In this document: positions 35,096-43,591 of the stretch, in pieces | Position numbering within the stretch: position 1 is the stretch's first letter | Layout of the letters: each line of letters opens with the position of its first letter | Source: Myxococcota bacterium | Lineage (GTDB): Bacteria; Myxococcota_A; Bradymonadia; UBA7976; UBA1532 | Length of the DNA: 43,591 bases | Assembly: GCA_963169045.1 (NCBI GenBank) | Contig: CAUJDF010000007.1 | Span: forward strand, 1-43,591 | Reading direction: 5' to 3' | The notes under the pieces: generated by a model | Seen by the model: only the letters and a program-made list of their open reading frames with translations | Databases searched by the model: none | What the model was told of the DNA's origin: nothing | Position numbers and translations under genes: made by a program

Positions 35096-37303
35096 TCAGC
35101 CCCCCGTCACGAAGAACGGCGCCCACACCCGCGTCGGCCCGGCCGCGGCGAGCTTGCGCTGCGCCCGCGCCACCGCGCCCACCGGGTCCTGCGCCCCGCC
35201 CTCTTCGTAGAACACCTCGACGAACCGCCGCGCGTCGGTGTCGTCGACCGACCAGAGCGCCGCGACGACGTGCCGCGCCCCCGCCGCGAGGAAGGCGGAC
35301 GCCACCGAGCCCCACATCTCGTCGCCGGGGCTCGCGCCGGACGCGCAGCTCGCGAGCACGACGAGGCGCGGGCGGATGCGCGACTCGAGGATGCGCCGCG
35401 CGTCGAACGGGCCGTCGGCGAGGCCGAGCCACGCGCCCGCCGCGCCGACGCCCGCGTGCGTCGCGACGTGCAGCACCGCCGCGTCCGCCGCGCCGCGCAC
35501 CTTCTCCGCGTTCGCCGCGGCCCCCACGAACGCCGACACGCCGAGCCGCGCCGCCACCGCCGTCGCCTCGCGGTACGCCTGCGGCAGGTCGCCGCGCGCG
35601 TCGCCGAGCACCACGGCGCCCGTCCCCGGGGATGCGGGCGCGCGCCGTAGGACAGAAAGCGCAGTCAATCCGGGCACATGCACGAGCGTGTGGTCCGCGA
35701 CGAGCGGGCGTCCGTCCACGCGCACCGCCGCGAACGGGACGCGCAGCAGCGGGCCGGCGGGGACGACGTGCACCGTCGCGCCGCGCGGCGGGCGCACGTC
35801 CGGCGGCAGCAGGAGCGCGCCGAGCGCCGCCGCCGACGCTTCGTCGTCCGGATCGCCGGCGAGCCGCAGCGCCGCCTTCTCGACCTCGGCCGGCGCCGCC
35901 GGCAGCGCCACGATGCGCGCGCGCCCGCCCTCGACGACCGTCAGCCACAGCTTGTCCTCGGCCGGGAACCAGACCAGCGCGTACGCGTCCCCGAGCGACG
36001 CGAGCACGTCGTCGACCGGCCGCATCGCCGCCGCCGCCGCCGGCAGGAGCGCCCGCAGCGCCGCGTCGTGCTCGCCCACCGCCGCCGCCGACGCGCGCTC
36101 GACGAACGCGTCGAGGAACATCCGCGCCAGCGCCCGCTCCTGCACCGCGAGCGCCCCGGGAACATCTCCGCTCGCGGCCCGCAGCGCGAACAGCGCCGCG
36201 TACGGCTCGCGCTTCGCCGCCAGGAACCACGCGCGCAGGTCGTCCTCGTCGAGATCGCGGCGCAACGTCTCGATGGCGTCGATGGCGCGCAGGAAGCCGG
36301 CCTCGGCGGCGGCCCGGTCGTCCGCCAGTCGGCCCTCGAGCAGCCCCAGCCGCCACGCCAGCTCCGGCGCCGGCGCGAGCTTTCGGCCCTCCGCGAGCAG
36401 GCGGCGCGCGTCGTCCGTCCGGCCCTGCCGCCACGCGAGCTCCGCCTTGCGGAACAGCAGGTTGACGCGGAACGACGCGTCCGGCGCCTGGTCCTGCACG
36501 GCGTCGGCGGCGTCGAGCGCCGGCCCCGCCAGGTCGAGGCGCCCCTCCTCGATCGCGGCCACCGCCTTGTTCAGGTGGATCGCCTTGAGCAGGTCGGGCC
36601 GCGGCTCCGCCTTCGCCAGCGCCTCCGCCTGCTCCAGGGACGAGCGCGCGAGCGCCGGCCGCCCCTCCGCGAGCCGCAAGTACCCGATCTTGGCGTGGAT
36701 CCAGGCACGGTCCCCCGGCGCGGCGTCGCCGAGCGCCTCTTCGGCGGAACGCCAGACGGCCTCCGCGCCGCGCCCGTCGCCGGCCTGCATCAGCACCGAG
36801 CCGCGCGCCAGCAGCACGAACCCGCGCAGCCGCCCGTCACCGGCCGCGAGCGCGCCCGTCTCCGCCACCTCGAGCCACGGGAGCGCCTCGGCGTACGCCC
36901 CGGCCTTCCAGTACGTCCCGGCGAGCGCCTGCGCGTCGCGGGCCGCCTCGCCGGGCTCGTCCGCGGCGCGGTGCAGGTCGAGCGCGCGCCGGTAGTCGGC
37001 GCGGCTCGCCTCCACGTCGCCGCGCCGCTCGTGGATCTTGCCCGCCACGCGCCGCAGCGTCGCCTCGGCCGGCGTGCCCTGCGCCCGTTCGAGCAGGGCG
37101 AGCGCCGCGTCATAGTCCCCGAAGTGGACGTGCGCGTGCGCCAGCGGCACCGCGACCCGCGGATCGGCGTCGAGCGCGGGCGGACAGACCTCGCGCACGG
37201 CGGCGTGGTCGCGCGCCCCGGCGGCCTCGGCGCACTTGTCGGTGGCGCCGCGGCAGCCGGCGAGCGCGCACGTGAGCAGGAGGAGGCGCCGCATCCGGGC
37301 CAT
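35096..37303 (-). CDS. TPR-CHAT domain lipoprotein (caspase-like peptidase)
   Basis: 735 residues. The signal MARMRRLLLLTCALAGC gives lipid Cys17. Residues of about 30-400 are TPR-like helices (YDAALALLERAQ, GDVEASRADYRRALDL, GAYAEALPWLEVA). The C-terminal third is a CHAT domain (caspase HetF Associated with TPRs) with VLHVATHAGV (catalytic His616) and VVLASCASGA (catalytic Cys653), the caspase-like His/Cys pair. CHAT proteases cut specific partners in several bacterial and immune-like systems (established knowledge). Lipid anchoring would place this one on the outer side of a membrane. No obvious substrate gene is adjacent. Also common in Myxococcota as orphan genes. Confidence 0.9.
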   Translation of the reverse strand: MARMRRLLLLTCALAGCRGATDKCAEAAGARDHAAVREVCPPALDADPRVAVPLAHAHVHFGDYDAALALLERAQGTPAEATLRRVAGKIHERRGDVEASRADYRRALDLHRAADEPGEAARDAQALAGTYWKAGAYAEALPWLEVAETGALAAGDGRLRGFVLLARGSVLMQAGDGRGAEAVWRSAEEALGDAAPGDRAWIHAKIGYLRLAEGRPALARSSLEQAEALAKAEPRPDLLKAIHLNKAVAAIEEGRLDLAGPALDAADAVQDQAPDASFRVNLLFRKAELAWRQGRTDDARRLLAEGRKLAPAPELAWRLGLLEGRLADDRAAAEAGFLRAIDAIETLRRDLDEDDLRAWFLAAKREPYAALFALRAASGDVPGALAVQERALARMFLDAFVERASAAAVGEHDAALRALLPAAAAAMRPVDDVLASLGDAYALVWFPAEDKLWLTVVEGGRARIVALPAAPAEVEKAALRLAGDPDDEASAAALGALLLPPDVRPPRGATVHVVPAGPLLRVPFAAVRVDGRPLVADHTLVHVPGLTALSVLRRAPASPGTGAVVLGDARGDLPQAYREATAVAARLGVSAFVGAAANAEKVRGAADAAVLHVATHAGVGAAGAWLGLADGPFDARRILESRIRPRLVVLASCASGASPGDEMWGSVASAFLAAGARHVVAALWSVDDTDARRFVEVFYEEGGAQDPVGAVARAQRKLAAAGPTRVWAPFFVTGG

Positions 37304-38959: not shown

Positions 38960-39232
38960 GTGACTGACCGGAGCGTGAGCGCGCGGCCGCCGAGCGGAGC
39001 CGAGCGGCAGCGCGTCGAGCGGTTGTCGGCGCGGCAGCGCGATGTGCTCCGGCTCGCCGCGCGCGGCCTGACCAGCGCGGAGATCGGCGAGATCCTCGGC
39101 ATTTCGGCCGAGCGTCCACACCCACTTTCGCGCCCTCTTCGCCCGGCTCGAGGTCAGCAATCGCACCGAGGCCGCCGTGGCGTGGCGCGCCTGGGAGGCG
39201 CAGGCGGACTGCCCAGCACACGGTGACTTTGC
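38960..39232 (+). pseudogene. frameshifted LuxR-type HTH regulator
   Basis: LSARQRDVLRLAARGLTSAEIGEILGISAE (frame of the GTG at 38960) is the first half of a GerE/LuxR helix-turn-helix. After position 39113 the rest, VHTHFRALFARLEVSNRTEAAVAW, continues in the next frame; the original frame instead runs to a stop at 39224-39226. A canonical LuxR domain would read GISxxTVHTHFRALFARLEVSNRTEA. A small indel (net one extra or two missing bases) has thus broken the gene, or there is a sequencing error. No receiver or sensory domain is visible; it was a short stand-alone HTH protein. After the shift no stop appears before the convergent cyclase gene. Confidence 0.72.
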
Positions 39233-39251: not shown

Positions 39252-40484
39252 TCAGCCGGGCTCGGCGAGGAGCCAGCCGCCGCCGTCGTCGAGCGCCACG
39301 TCGAAGCCGCGCGCCTGCAGCCGCTCCGCGAGGCCCCGCGCCACGCGGATGCCGCCGGGGCGGCTCGCACGCTCCATCGCGACGGCTCCGTCGACGGCGT
39401 CGCCCCACAGGTCGTAGGCGAAGCGCGCGCGTCCGACGACGCCGGCGACGGCGGGGCCGGTGTGCAGGCCGATTCGGAGCGACGGTCCGGAGGCGGCGGT
39501 CGCCTCGCGCAGCGCCAGGGCGAGCCGGGCGGCGGCCTCCTCGTGATCCGGGCGGGGCGCGGGCACGCCCGACGCCGCGAGCCAGCCGTCGCCGAGCGTC
39601 TTGATCTTCTCGACGCCGTGGGCGGCGCACAGCTCGTCGAAGCGGCCGTAGAGGCGGTCGAGCAACGCGCCGATCTCGGCGGGATCGGCGCCGTCGCAGA
39701 GCGGCGTGAAGCCGACGATGTCGGCGAGGACGACCGTGACGGCGTCGTACCGTTCGGCGACGCCCTCGCGGCCTTCGCGCAGGCGCGCGGCGATGGACGC
39801 GGGGAGCGCGTTGCGCAGGAGCGCGTCGGAGCGGGCGCGCGCCTCGGCGAGCAGGCGCCGGCGCTCGTAGCCGCGGCGCTCGAGGACCTCGAGCGTGCGC
39901 GACGTCCAGGCGCCGGCCACGTTCATCACGACGCCGAACAAGGCGACGACCGCCACCGGCGGCGGTTCGGGCGCGAGCGCGAGCAGGGCGAGGCCGGCGG
40001 CGGTCATGCCGGCGCCGAGCGGGACCGCGTACGCGAAGCGCAGGCGCGAGAAGGCGTAGACGCAGATCAGCGCGAGCTGGAAGGCCAGCACGGCGAACCA
40101 GGTCTGCTCCGCGTCGGCGGCGGGGACCATGACCCAGGACATCCCGAGCATGCCGAGGCACGCCGCGGTGGAGAGGCCGAGCAGGAACTCCTGGACGTGG
40201 TGGCGCAGGCGCGCGCGCCCCGGCTGCGTGCCGAGGTACCCGCCGCCCAGCAGCAGCGTCGCCACGACCGCGAAGCGCGGGACGAGGAGCCACGCGGCGA
40301 ACTCGGGGTAGACGAGGACGTCGTTGACGACGAAGCCGGCGAAGACGAGCGCCAGCACGAAGGCGCAGCGGCGCACGTACGGGGCGAGCTCCTGGCCGGC
40401 GTCGGCGCGGAAGGCGCGCTCCTCGGCGGGGTCCGCGAAGCGCAGGAGCAGCGGGTGCTGAACGAAGCGCGGGTCGCGGCTCAC
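39252..40484 (-). CDS. six-TM class III nucleotidyl cyclase, metal-site subunit (C1-like)
   Basis: The GTG start overlaps the stop of the upstream cyclase (GTGA). Six TM helices span about residues 40-195 (for example AFVLALVFAGFVVNDVLVYP, FAVVATLLLGGGYLG, VAVVALFGVVMNVAGAW), then a linker helix (ALLRNALPASIAARL), then the catalytic domain. It has metal Asp255 (VVLADIVGFT) and Asp299 (KIKTLGD), and base-binding Lys295 and Asp358 (YDLWG). The transition-state Asn and Arg (usually in WGDxVNxAxR) are replaced: WGDAVDGAVAM gives Asp365 and Ala369. Alone it should be inactive or very weak; paired with the upstream protein it can complete one site. It makes cAMP by prediction, since Lys/Asp specify adenine (family knowledge). 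Confidence 0.92.
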   Translation of the reverse strand: MSRDPRFVQHPLLLRFADPAEERAFRADAGQELAPYVRRCAFVLALVFAGFVVNDVLVYPEFAAWLLVPRFAVVATLLLGGGYLGTQPGRARLRHHVQEFLLGLSTAACLGMLGMSWVMVPAADAEQTWFAVLAFQLALICVYAFSRLRFAYAVPLGAGMTAAGLALLALAPEPPPVAVVALFGVVMNVAGAWTSRTLEVLERRGYERRRLLAEARARSDALLRNALPASIAARLREGREGVAERYDAVTVVLADIVGFTPLCDGADPAEIGALLDRLYGRFDELCAAHGVEKIKTLGDGWLAASGVPAPRPDHEEAAARLALALREATAASGPSLRIGLHTGPAVAGVVGRARFAYDLWGDAVDGAVAMERASRPGGIRVARGLAERLQARGFDVALDDGGGWLLAEPG

Positions 40485-41719
40485 GGGTCCAACCACGCCG
40501 CATCGACTTCGCCCTTGCCCTTCAGCGGGGTGGGGCCGCGGGGCGTGACGCGTCCGACGCCCGCGCGTCGCGCCGTGGCGAAGGTGGTCAACACGCGCCC
40601 GGGCTCGCCGGCCGCGTCGAGGCGCGCGGCGGTGTTGACGGTGTCGCCCCAGCAGTCGAAGGCGTAGCGCCTGCGCCCGATGACGCCGACGACGAGCGGT
40701 CCCGTGGCGAGGCCCACGCGCAGTCGGAGGACGACGCCGCGCTCGGCGGCGAGCGCGTCGACCTCGGCGAGCATCGCGAGGGCGAGCGCGGCGCCATCGG
40801 TGGCCGGATCGCCGGGCGGCGCGCCGGTCACGCCGACGGCGGCGATGTACGTGGCGCCGACCGTCTTGATGCGCTCGGCGCCGCGCGCGGTGACCAGCGC
40901 GTCGAGCCGGGCGACGACCGCGTCGAGGAGCTCCACGACGGCGAGCGGCGAGAGGCCGGCGGCGGCCTCGGCGAAGCCCCCGATGGTCGCGAAGAGGACG
41001 GCCGCGTCGGGGACGCGGTCGAGGCGGCTCGCGCCGGTCTCGAGGCGCTCGGCCCAGGCGCGCGGCATCACGTTGAGGAGCAGCGCCTCGGAGCGCGCCT
41101 GCTCCTCTGCCAGCTCCCGGGCCCGCAGGAAGGCGCGGCGCGCGGAGCGCTCGAGCCAGCGGGACACGACGAGCCCGACGGCGTTGGCGCCGAGGCCGAA
41201 CGTCGAGAAGGCGAGGAGCAGGCCGGGCGTCGGCGAGGCGCGCAGGAGGATGCCCGCGAGGAACAGGGCGGTGGCGGCGAGGCCGAGGCCCGCGGCGTAG
41301 CGGAAGCGCAGGCCCGTCGCGCCGTAGAGCGCCGTCAGGAACACGTTCAGCGCGAGGACGGCGGCGAAGGCGCGGCCGCCGGTCAGCGACGGGAAGATGA
41401 TCCACGAGATGCCGGACAGGCCGAGGAGCGTGACGGCGGCGACGTAGAGCAGCCAGGCCTGCGCGCCCTGCGCGAGGCGCTCCGCGGCGCGGCGTCCGAA
41501 GAACGCCGGCAGCGCCGGGAGCAGCAGCGCGATGGTCGCGCCGCGCACCGCCAGCAGGGCGCCGAGGCGGTCCGGCCAGAGCAGCGCGTCGAGCCCGGCG
41601 AACAGGACGAGGCCGGTGAGGAGGACGGCGAAGCCGCTCTTCAGAACACGCGTCTGCTCGGCGGCGTGCCACGCCCACCACGCGCGCTCGAGCGCGGCAT
41701 CGCCGAAACGGAGGGACAC
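40481..41719 (-). CDS. six-TM class III nucleotidyl cyclase, transition-state subunit (C2-like)
   Basis: GTG 41719 is chosen because GAGAGG lies 7 bases upstream; GTG 41734 is an alternative. Six TM helices (about 28-190), a linker helix (ALLLNVMPRAWAERL), then the cyclase fold. Both metal aspartates are gone: VLFATIGGF has Thr245 where Asp is expected, and IKTVGATYIAA has Ala289. Base-binding Lys285 and Asp355 (FDCWG) and transition-state Asn362 and Arg366 (WGDTVNTAARL) are intact. The 'IKTVGATYIAA' block resembles the mammalian C2 block IKTIGSTYMAA. Its stop overlaps the start of the partner gene by 4 bp, which favours equal amounts. It also follows the surface-protein gene by 24 bp, likely in one operon. 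Confidence 0.92.
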   Translation of the reverse strand: MSLRFGDAALERAWWAWHAAEQTRVLKSGFAVLLTGLVLFAGLDALLWPDRLGALLAVRGATIALLLPALPAFFGRRAAERLAQGAQAWLLYVAAVTLLGLSGISWIIFPSLTGGRAFAAVLALNVFLTALYGATGLRFRYAAGLGLAATALFLAGILLRASPTPGLLLAFSTFGLGANAVGLVVSRWLERSARRAFLRARELAEEQARSEALLLNVMPRAWAERLETGASRLDRVPDAAVLFATIGGFAEAAAGLSPLAVVELLDAVVARLDALVTARGAERIKTVGATYIAAVGVTGAPPGDPATDGAALALAMLAEVDALAAERGVVLRLRVGLATGPLVVGVIGRRRYAFDCWGDTVNTAARLDAAGEPGRVLTTFATARRAGVGRVTPRGPTPLKGKGEVDAAWLDP

Positions 41720-41743
41720 GCGCAAACCTCTCACACGCGCCGA

Positions 41744-43591
41744 TCAGGGGCAGCGATCCGTCCAGACGTAGCCGTCGGAGGTGACCACGAGGCCGCCCGG
41801 CTCGTGGTTCAGGTGCTCGACGAGGTAGCCGAGGTACCAGACGCCGTCCTGGAAGCGCAGATCGGGGCGCACGGCTTCGTCCGCCATGGTCATGTCGTCG
41901 CTCGGGTCGACCCAGCGGCGGCCCTCGACGAGGCGCTCGAACGCCCAGCCGTCGGGCGTGCGCCGGCCCAGCTCCAGCGAGGGGGCGGCCTCGACGCGTC
42001 CGCCGTCGGCGCGCGCGATCGAGACGGCGACGCGCAGCTCGCCGGCGCCGAACGCCGCGCTCACCCCCTCGAGATCGCCGACGACGGCGTCGTCGAGCAG
42101 CGCCTCGTCGATCCAGCCGGCGGCCTCGCGGCGCCACGCAGAGACACCGGTGCGGTCGCCCGTGACCACGATCGCGTCGTCGTCGGGACCGACGGCGAGC
42201 GCCAGGCGACCGGCGCTGCGCGCCACGCGCTCGCGCACCCAGCCACCGGGCCCCGACCGGGCGTACCACACGTGGTCGTGGAGGTCCTCGCCCGGCTTCA
42301 CGTAGGCGACGTGGAACGTGTCGGACGGGGGGAGCGCGGCGGTCGCCCGCGCGGTGCGGACGATGTGCGCGGGACGCGCGGCGGCGCCGACCCCCTCGGC
42401 CTCGATCACGTCTTCGACCCAGCCGTCGGCGCCGCGGTGCTTGTGGACGAGACGGCCGCGATCGACGAGGAACACGTGCGGGCGTCCCTGCCGGTCGAGC
42501 GCCAGCTGCGCGTAGAAGTCGCCCCGGTCGTGGACCGTCTCGGCGTGCAGCACGCCGCGCAGGTGGCGCAGCAGCAAGGTGCCCGCCACGCCCGAGCCCG
42601 CCATGTACAGCGAGCCGTCGGGCGCGCCCTCCCCGCCGAGCAGCGACTGGGCGAGCGCGTCGTGCCGGAAGCTCTCGCGCTCCCGCCCGAAGTTGCCGAC
42701 GAGGACCTCGTTGCGCGACGCCCCGCGGCGCGTGCGCGCGACGATCCCCACGTGGAAGTCGCCCGCCGCGTCGACCGCCCAGCGCGACATCGTGCTCACG
42801 TCGGCGAAGGGACCCATCGCGTGCACGCGGGGCTCGCAGCCGCCGCGGACGACGACCGGCGCCGGCCCCGGACAGCCCTCGTCGAGCTCGCCGTCGCAGT
42901 CGTCGTCGTGGCCGTCGCAGGCCTCGTCGGCGGGCCGCACCTCGCCCTCGCAGGCGCCGAGGACGCCGCCGGCGCAGGCGCGCACGCCCGCGGCGCAGCG
43001 GCCGACGCCCTCGGTGCCCGCGGGGCCGCCGTAGCAGGCGCGCGCCTCGGGCGGCGGACACACGGCGCACGCCGCGTCCCCGGCACAGTCGGCGTCGTCG
43101 CAGTCCGCGTCGCCGTCGCAGTCCTCGTCGGCGTCGCCGGCGCAGACCTCCGGCGCGGGGCGCGGTGCGCTGCAGCCGACCCACGCGCCGTCGGCGCAGC
43201 GCTCGACGCCGGCGCCGCAGGCCGACGCGCACGCGCGCTCGGCGTCCTGGGCGCAGTCGCCGCAGCCCTCGTCGACCCGGCCGTCGCAGTCCGCGTCGAC
43301 GCCGTCGCCACACGCCTCGGCCATCGGCAGGCGCTGCCCCTCGCACGCGCCGAGCGCGCCCTCGACGCAGGCGCGGACGCCGCGCCGGCACGCGCCGACG
43401 TCCGCCGTCGCCGCCGGACCGTCGTAGCACGCGCGCGCTTCCGGCGGCGGGCACACGGCGCACGCCGGGGCGCCCGCGCAGGCCGGATCGCCGCAGTCCG
43501 CCGGCTCCGGGCATCCCGCGCACGCCGGGGCGCCCGCGCAGGCCGGATCGCCGCAGTCCGCCGGCTCCGGGCATCCCGCGCACGCCGGGGC
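41744..43591 (-). CDS. surface protein with MopE-like repeats and beta-propeller-like region (5' end missing)
   Basis: The reading frame is open through the window edge, so the N-terminus and signal are missing; the apparent Val/Met at 43456 is internal. The visible N-terminal part is Cys-rich: a perfect 60-bp repeat encoding ACAGCPEPADCGDPACAGAP, then modules CPPPEARACYDGPAATADV and AEACGDGVDADCDGRVDEGC, VCAGDADEDCDGDADCDDADC and EACDGHDDDCDGELDEGC, the MopE-type acidic Cys repeats. The last 370 residues have recurring 'WAVDAAGDFHVGIVAR', 'DGSLYMAGSG', 'FYAQLALDRQGRPHVFLVDRG' and 'DTFHVAYVKPGED' units typical of a sialidase-like beta-propeller, without catalytic residues I can name. It is predicted to be a secreted, metal-binding surface protein heading the cyclase operon. 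Confidence 0.85.
   Translation of the reverse strand, partial: APACAGCPEPADCGDPACAGAPACAGCPEPADCGDPACAGAPACAVCPPPEARACYDGPAATADVGACRRGVRACVEGALGACEGQRLPMAEACGDGVDADCDGRVDEGCGDCAQDAERACASACGAGVERCADGAWVGCSAPRPAPEVCAGDADEDCDGDADCDDADCAGDAACAVCPPPEARACYGGPAGTEGVGRCAAGVRACAGGVLGACEGEVRPADEACDGHDDDCDGELDEGCPGPAPVVVRGGCEPRVHAMGPFADVSTMSRWAVDAAGDFHVGIVARTRRGASRNEVLVGNFGRERESFRHDALAQSLLGGEGAPDGSLYMAGSGVAGTLLLRHLRGVLHAETVHDRGDFYAQLALDRQGRPHVFLVDRGRLVHKHRGADGWVEDVIEAEGVGAAARPAHIVRTARATAALPPSDTFHVAYVKPGEDLHDHVWYARSGPGGWVRERVARSAGRLALAVGPDDDAIVVTGDRTGVSAWRREAAGWIDEALLDDAVVGDLEGVSAAFGAGELRVAVSIARADGGRVEAAPSLELGRRTPDGWAFERLVEGRRWVDPSDDMTMADEAVRPDLRFQDGVWYLGYLVEHLNHEPGGLVVTSDGYVWTDRCP
43461..43591 (-). repeat. 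perfect 60-bp tandem repeat at window edge
   Basis: Two complete identical 60-bp units (43461-43520, 43521-43580) and 11 bases of a third. They encode ACAGCPEPADCGDPACAGAP in frame. The array continues beyond the window. Identity to the base implies recent duplication or ongoing slippage. Confidence 0.95.

Follow-up and report, generated by a model that had tools for sequence, protein, structure and literature searches.

A coupled pair of membrane cyclase genes

Two overlapping genes in a draft Myxococcota genome very probably encode the two subunits of a membrane-bound class IIIa adenylyl cyclase that is an obligate heterodimer. The observations that carry this assignment are: the structure of the two genes; the pattern of their active-site residues; the conservation of that pattern in four diverged pairs; an origin by tandem duplication; and purifying selection on both members. 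The assignment rests on sequence and on models of single chains, without biochemical data or a model of the heterodimer.

The genes lie in a window of 43,591 nucleotides, the whole stretch of DNA analysed, which is an entire contig (C7) of the draft genome. The upstream, C2-like subunit (UP) is encoded at 40481..41719 on the minus strand and has 412 residues; its start is ambiguous, with GTG at 41719 and in-frame alternatives at 41725 and 41734. The downstream, C1-like subunit (DN) is encoded on the same strand at 39252..40484 and has 410 residues, with a GTG start. The DN start codon lies over the UP stop codon in a GTGA overlap (40481..40484, minus), an arrangement suited to translational coupling. 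The sequence-only reading from which this analysis began had placed both open reading frames, and identified the GTGA overlap, correctly.

That reading had also described both products as six transmembrane (6TM) helices followed by a class III catalytic domain, and the description holds. Six hydrophobic segments precede the catalytic domain in UP and six in DN, and the catalytic domains match Pfam PF00211 (Guanylate_cyc) at 122.8 bits (E 1.6e-35) in UP and 129.9 bits (E 1.1e-37) in DN, against a curated cut-off of 21.9. The two proteins are 36% identical across almost their whole length, the membrane part included. AlphaFold2 single-chain models (pLDDT 88.0 for UP, 83.2 for DN) render the same part of each chain as helical. 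Both models match full-length Rv1625c/Cya best and mammalian AC5/AC9 next, with soluble guanylyl cyclase matched as well. Whole-chain TM-scores are low (0.42-0.46), presumably reflecting a different angle between membrane and catalytic portions. When the catalytic domains are taken alone and scores are normalised by target, UP reaches about 0.84 against C1 or C2 chains of adenylyl cyclase, and DN reaches 0.85 against the Rv1625c catalytic domain and 0.74 against adenylyl cyclase C2. Both proteins thus satisfy the criteria for a class IIIa 6TM cyclase of the Rv1625c type: six segments, helical models, the Lys/Asp pair, and a best fold match to 7yzk.

The product of the gene preceding the pair (41744-43456, minus) is a repeat protein rich in Cys that weakly matches a MopE-type metal-binding motif; the open frame of this gene runs on to the contig end. 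Immediately beyond the downstream end of the pair, a short frame on the other strand (38960-39226, plus) carries a partial helix-turn-helix of the LuxR/sigma-region-4 type; it appears truncated or frameshifted. A TPR-CHAT protein, carrying a caspase-like CHAT domain, is encoded close to the pair (35096-37303, minus).

Division of active-site residues between the two proteins

Class III active sites sit at the dimer interface, with metals bound by one subunit and Lys, Asp, Asn and Arg supplied by the other. Six key positions can be read for each protein, in the order: metal 1, Lys, metal 2, Asp, Asn, Arg. Alignment to AC5, AC9 and Cya gives Thr245/Lys285/Ala289/Asp355/Asn362/Arg366 (TKADNR) for UP and Asp255/Lys295/Asp299/Asp358/Asp365/Ala369 (DKDDDA) for DN, confirming every residue assignment made from the sequence alone. 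In UP, the first metal position is lost at Thr245 (codon ACC, 40985..40987) and the second at Ala289 (40853..40855), while the transition-state pair is retained in the segment Asn362..Arg366 (40622..40636). In DN, the first metal aspartate is retained at Asp255 (codon GAC, 39720..39722) and the second at Asp299 (39588..39590), and Asp365..Ala369 (39378..39392) replace Asn..Arg. All of these codons are on the minus strand.

A further difference, absent from the sequence-only reading, lies at the C-terminus, where an RG...LKGKG segment is retained by UP and gone from DN in all four of the pairs described below. In mammalian adenylyl cyclases, the LKGKG lysine touches the triphosphate from the C2 side. 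The comparison of this lysine leaves out AC C1 and Cya, whose PDB fragments stop short of it. A homodimer needs the full set of six catalytic residues in a single polypeptide, which neither UP nor DN has in any of the four pairs. Instead, the mechanistic asymmetry of C1 and C2 is present: DN has the metal ligands without Asn/Arg, and UP has Lys, Asp, Asn and Arg without the metal ligands. A UP/UP dimer would lack metals and a DN/DN dimer would lack Asn/Arg, so that only UP/DN has one complete site. Loss at these positions is rare: of the 63 further class IIIa-type catalytic domains from bacteria that were compared, 61 have the complete six-residue set (DKDDNR), and the remaining two read EKDDNR and HKADNR.

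The inference that neither homodimer is active, and that the heterodimer has one good and one dead site, is supported by the class III mechanism and by complementation in a related enzyme: Rv1625c D300A and R376A are each inactive, and their co-expression restores activity (PMC4821796). Activity of the UP/DN pair itself remains inferred. A different division of roles would make UP a pseudo-cyclase that senses or inhibits, and DN a homodimeric enzyme with an unorthodox site. DN does hold both metal ligands, Lys and Asp, and mycobacterial cyclase-like proteins substituted at the Asn position are on record (PMC4886424). This arrangement is nevertheless improbable: DN also lacks the Arg, which is Ala in all four pairs, and the LKGKG segment; Rv1625c carrying R376A by itself is described as inactive (PMC4821796); and UP strictly keeps Lys, Asp, Asn, Arg and LKGKG, for which a mere regulator would have no use. 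Because DN retains Lys and Asp, weak homodimer activity in the absence of Asn/Arg is not excluded by sequence.

Nucleotide specificity is likewise an inference from residues. Lys285 and Asp355 of UP predict ATP as the substrate of the UP/DN heterodimer. Among split heterodimers of this fold, the classic example is soluble guanylyl cyclase, and both models match it, which raises the question of whether the product could be cGMP or another nucleotide. The Lys and Asp that specify adenine occur in UP of all four pairs, leaving very little room for a guanylyl cyclase. Soluble guanylyl cyclase alpha/beta and the chytrid rhodopsin-cyclase heterodimers (NeoR, PMC8815786) resemble the pair in being obligate class III heterodimers encoded by separate genes. 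They differ in being eukaryotic and guanylyl-specific, in bearing other sensor domains, and in not being 6TM class IIIa adenylyl cyclases. For an adenylyl cyclase, candidate cAMP readers exist, as the genome contains 29 matches to cNMP-binding domains.

Conservation of the pair across genomes

A first search, covering 379 genomes from across the phylum, identified orthologous pairs in two genomes of one genus (L071 and L072, in G297 and G229). A scan with one genome per species found both again and added a Polyangiaceae metagenome-assembled genome (L093, JADLFU010000091.1). The search proposed in the sequence-only reading, for coupled Myxococcota pairs with reciprocal losses, has thus yielded three more genomes. 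UP is 54, 54 and 40% identical to its three orthologues, and DN is 57, 55 and 42% identical to its own. The key residues are TKADNR, TKADNR, TKSDNR and TKADNR in the four UPs, and DKDDDA, DKDDSA, DKDDTA and DKDDEA in the four DNs. That reading had named homologues with a full residue set as an observation that would refute it; no member of either group has such a set, so the reading passes this test.

A 4-nt stop/start overlap joins the genes in every case: GTGA in the window, in L071 and in L093, and ATGA in L072. The flanking genes, named from their translations, differ: carA and carB lie downstream of the pair in L071 and L072; L093 has clpA/clpS and a beta-lactamase-like gene beside it; and the genes around the window pair are unrelated to those beside the orthologous pairs. 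The flanking genes give no functional lead, since neighbours vary between pairs. That UP and DN stay together while their neighbours differ indicates that the conserved unit is the pair itself, and no UP without a DN partner was seen in the genomes searched. Between the two closest genomes, dN is about 0.155 against a dS of 0.475 for UP, and about 0.171 against 0.702 for DN. With dN well below dS in each, both genes are under purifying selection.

These pairs bear on the simplest alternative, in which redundant cyclase duplicates drifted and their complementarity is a coincidence. Redundancy is possible, as the genome has other intact cyclases (for example, DKDDNR on contig C3). Drift would not, however, be expected to remove identical positions in four genomes at 40-57% identity while other key residues stay invariant. 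Nor does it fit with intact reading frames and overlaps, with the low dN relative to dS in the two closest genomes, or with retention of all six residues in 61 of the 63 other class IIIa domains. The conservation of the orthologous pairs largely rules out random decay, and the likelihood left to it is slight.

The distribution of the pair is patchy, with four occurrences among more than 560 genomes handled. Within the class to which the window belongs, 57 genomes yielded no pair other than the window's own. This patchiness could reflect frequent loss or horizontal transfer. All four pairs come from metagenome-assembled or draft genomes (n=4). The largest searches scored no more than the top 4-9 candidates in each genome, so that further pairs may have been missed.

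Tandem and fused relatives

A full-length tree, made with the active-site columns removed, recovers a UP group (support 100/100) and a DN group (100/99) as sisters (98/96), and the branching order within UP mirrors that within DN. A single tandem duplication, after which the two copies underwent reciprocal loss and were inherited jointly, explains the two groups, their sisterhood and the mirrored order. The asymmetric pattern accordingly traces in the tree to a single origin after which it was retained, rather than to four independent events.

The sister clade of UP and DN (97/96) contains two tandem pairs and a single-chain protein. In both tandem pairs, L155 (2419-5117; G568:C51) and L073 (G172:C920), both members are intact and overlap through ATGA, making them candidates for the state before the losses. 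The single-chain protein, L074 (3192-5909; G131:C36), is a 906-aa frame with two catalytic domains, each DKDDNR, and Pfam finds two stretches. A separate fusion elsewhere in the tree, L124 (2288-6115 minus; G470:C238), likewise has two intact domains (DKDDNR twice). These Myxococcota tandem and fused 6TM cyclases differ from UP/DN in having DKDDNR in both catalytic domains. A hydropathy scan of the fused frames finds fewer than 12 segments (9 in L074, 8 in L124), so that their description as 2x6TM rests on homology to the single proteins. Two hits in the same family that looked like two-domain proteins, L013 and L014 (open frame 967 aa), were set aside; they are single intact cyclases followed by other domains.

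A relative of L074, L123 (3654-5639; G172:C917), has a first catalytic domain that reads HKADNR, without metal ligands, followed by a second membrane domain. The C2-like domain comes first, and the frame ends at the contig end, within the fused chain. L123 is possibly a second case of asymmetry, this time in a fused chain; the contig end cuts its second catalytic domain.

Taken in aggregate, the tandem, fused and asymmetric forms outline a bacterial series: from a single gene to a coupled pair to a fused chain; in one branch, the asymmetry became fixed. On balance, it is likely, with appreciable doubt, that bacteria arrived independently of eukaryotes at the coupled pair (L155, L073), at fusion into one chain (L074, L123) and, through reciprocal losses, at an obligate heterodimer (the window pair and its three orthologues).

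Relationship to mammalian membrane cyclases

Mammalian AC1-AC9 share with the pair a layout of two units, each of six transmembrane helices and a class IIIa domain, with one active and one degenerate site. In both systems, one half has the metal ligands without the Asn/Arg pair, and the other has Lys, Asp, Asn, Arg and an LKGKG-type segment without the metals. In the alignment with UP and DN, the key positions of AC5 are DKDDTH in C1 and SKSDNR in C2, and those of AC9 are DSDDNL in C1 and SKADNR in C2; AC5 C1, like DN, retains Lys and Asp on the metal-bearing half. The mammalian enzymes differ in being one chain that runs from C1 to C2 (AC5, AC9), whereas the pair is two bacterial genes with the C2-like one first. 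UP/DN therefore fails the single-chain, C1-then-C2 criterion by which a mammalian cyclase by descent would be recognised. There is also no evidence that UP/DN is regulated by G proteins or forskolin, and a common asymmetric ancestor is not demonstrated. The earlier description of the pair as a split mammalian-type cyclase consequently applies to the logic, that is, the division of labour between halves, and not to descent, given that the gene order is opposite to that of mammals. It is concluded that UP/DN works like the mammalian enzyme, with activity inferred.

Could the asymmetry nonetheless be homologous, with the pair a bacterial descendant or relative of the eukaryotic C1/C2 lineage? Several similarities point that way: the top PDB domain score of UP is to human AC5 C2; the KTIGSTYMAA and KTIGATYMAA motifs of UP orthologues equal the AC5/AC9 C2 motifs; and, with active-site columns masked, approximately unbiased (AU) tests reject neither UP with C2 (p 0.65) nor DN with C1 (p 0.45). 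These tests, run on catalytic domains in a 37-row subset, rejected no grouping at all, and in one case the constraint gave a slightly better tree than the quick unconstrained search, which had thus not reached its optimum. In the 96-domain tree, mammalian C1 and C2 do not join DN and UP but are placed elsewhere, with weak support. The best-supported neighbours of the pair are instead bacterial tandem pairs with both sites intact, so that the asymmetry most simply arose within the bacterial clade. Reversed gene order, together with these intact tandem relatives, favours an independent origin of the UP/DN asymmetry; the catalytic-domain trees do not settle the matter, and homology remains an unlikely reading that cannot be dismissed.

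A proposed mechanism for the heterodimer

If UP and DN function as proposed, the gene overlap would couple their translation, such that the two subunits are made together. Pairing is predicted to involve the 6TM bundles, the helix below them and the catalytic domains. At the working interface, DN Asp255 and Asp299 would bind two metal ions. From the other side, UP Lys285 and Asp355 would recognise adenine, and UP Asn362, Arg366 and the LKGKG lysine would act on the ribose, the phosphate and the transition state, so that ATP could be converted to cAMP. The second interface, without metals and without Asn/Arg, is expected to be dead and may be regulatory. The two different 6TM domains could take two different inputs. 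Dimerisation, the cAMP product, and any role of the dead site or the membrane domains are inferences of the model.

The nearest structural counterpart is Rv1625c/Cya of Mycobacterium (7yzk, 7yzi, 4p2f), which has the same succession of six transmembrane helices, helix and class IIIa catalytic domain. Rv1625c/Cya differs in being a symmetric homodimer from one gene with two complete sites, whereas the losses in UP and DN are natural and fixed.

Implications for cyclase evolution

Bacterial class III cyclases are described as monomers that homodimerise, with fused dimeric class III cyclases unknown in bacteria (Schultz 2022, PMC9552081), and the literature assigns to early eukaryotes the steps by which membrane cyclases were duplicated and lost their symmetry. 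The open-access literature searched yielded no description of a heterodimeric membrane cyclase occurring naturally in bacteria; priority is uncertain, as subscription papers were outside the scope of the search. L074 and L124 are bacterial proteins of the mammalian membrane-cyclase layout, a type called unknown in the 2022 review (PMC9552081).

Bacterial cyclases with asymmetric halves are not in themselves a novelty, as soluble two-domain proteins like sAC occur in the same genome. Tandem cyclases of the sAC/ADCY10 type resemble UP/DN in combining a C1-like half (e.g. DKDVAL) and a C2-like half (e.g. RKMTNR), here in one chain. They differ in being soluble single chains of about 1340 aa without a 6TM anchor and with the C1-like half first. 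The window's genome encodes three such proteins (L157:115-4125 minus and L158:1492-5535, G000:C103; L159:949-4986, G000:C2), each of about 1340 aa with an N-terminal C1-like and then a C2-like domain, in the mammalian order; in L159, both cyclase domains look degenerate. sAC is closest to cyanobacterial and myxobacterial cyclases (PMC3918592). What is new here is the conserved two-gene form of a 6TM class IIIa cyclase, together with its intact tandem and fused relatives.

A bacterial heterodimer beside intact tandem and fused forms makes the steps from symmetry to asymmetry testable in simple proteins. One can ask what advantage comes with the sacrifice of a site, and whether the dead site has a regulatory function. 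A third question, under active discussion for mammalian membrane cyclases too, is whether each of the two different 6TM domains reads a signal of its own. If the proposed series is true, the Myxococcota would harbour extant intermediates in the evolution of adenylyl cyclases of the mammalian type, along a route once considered eukaryotic.
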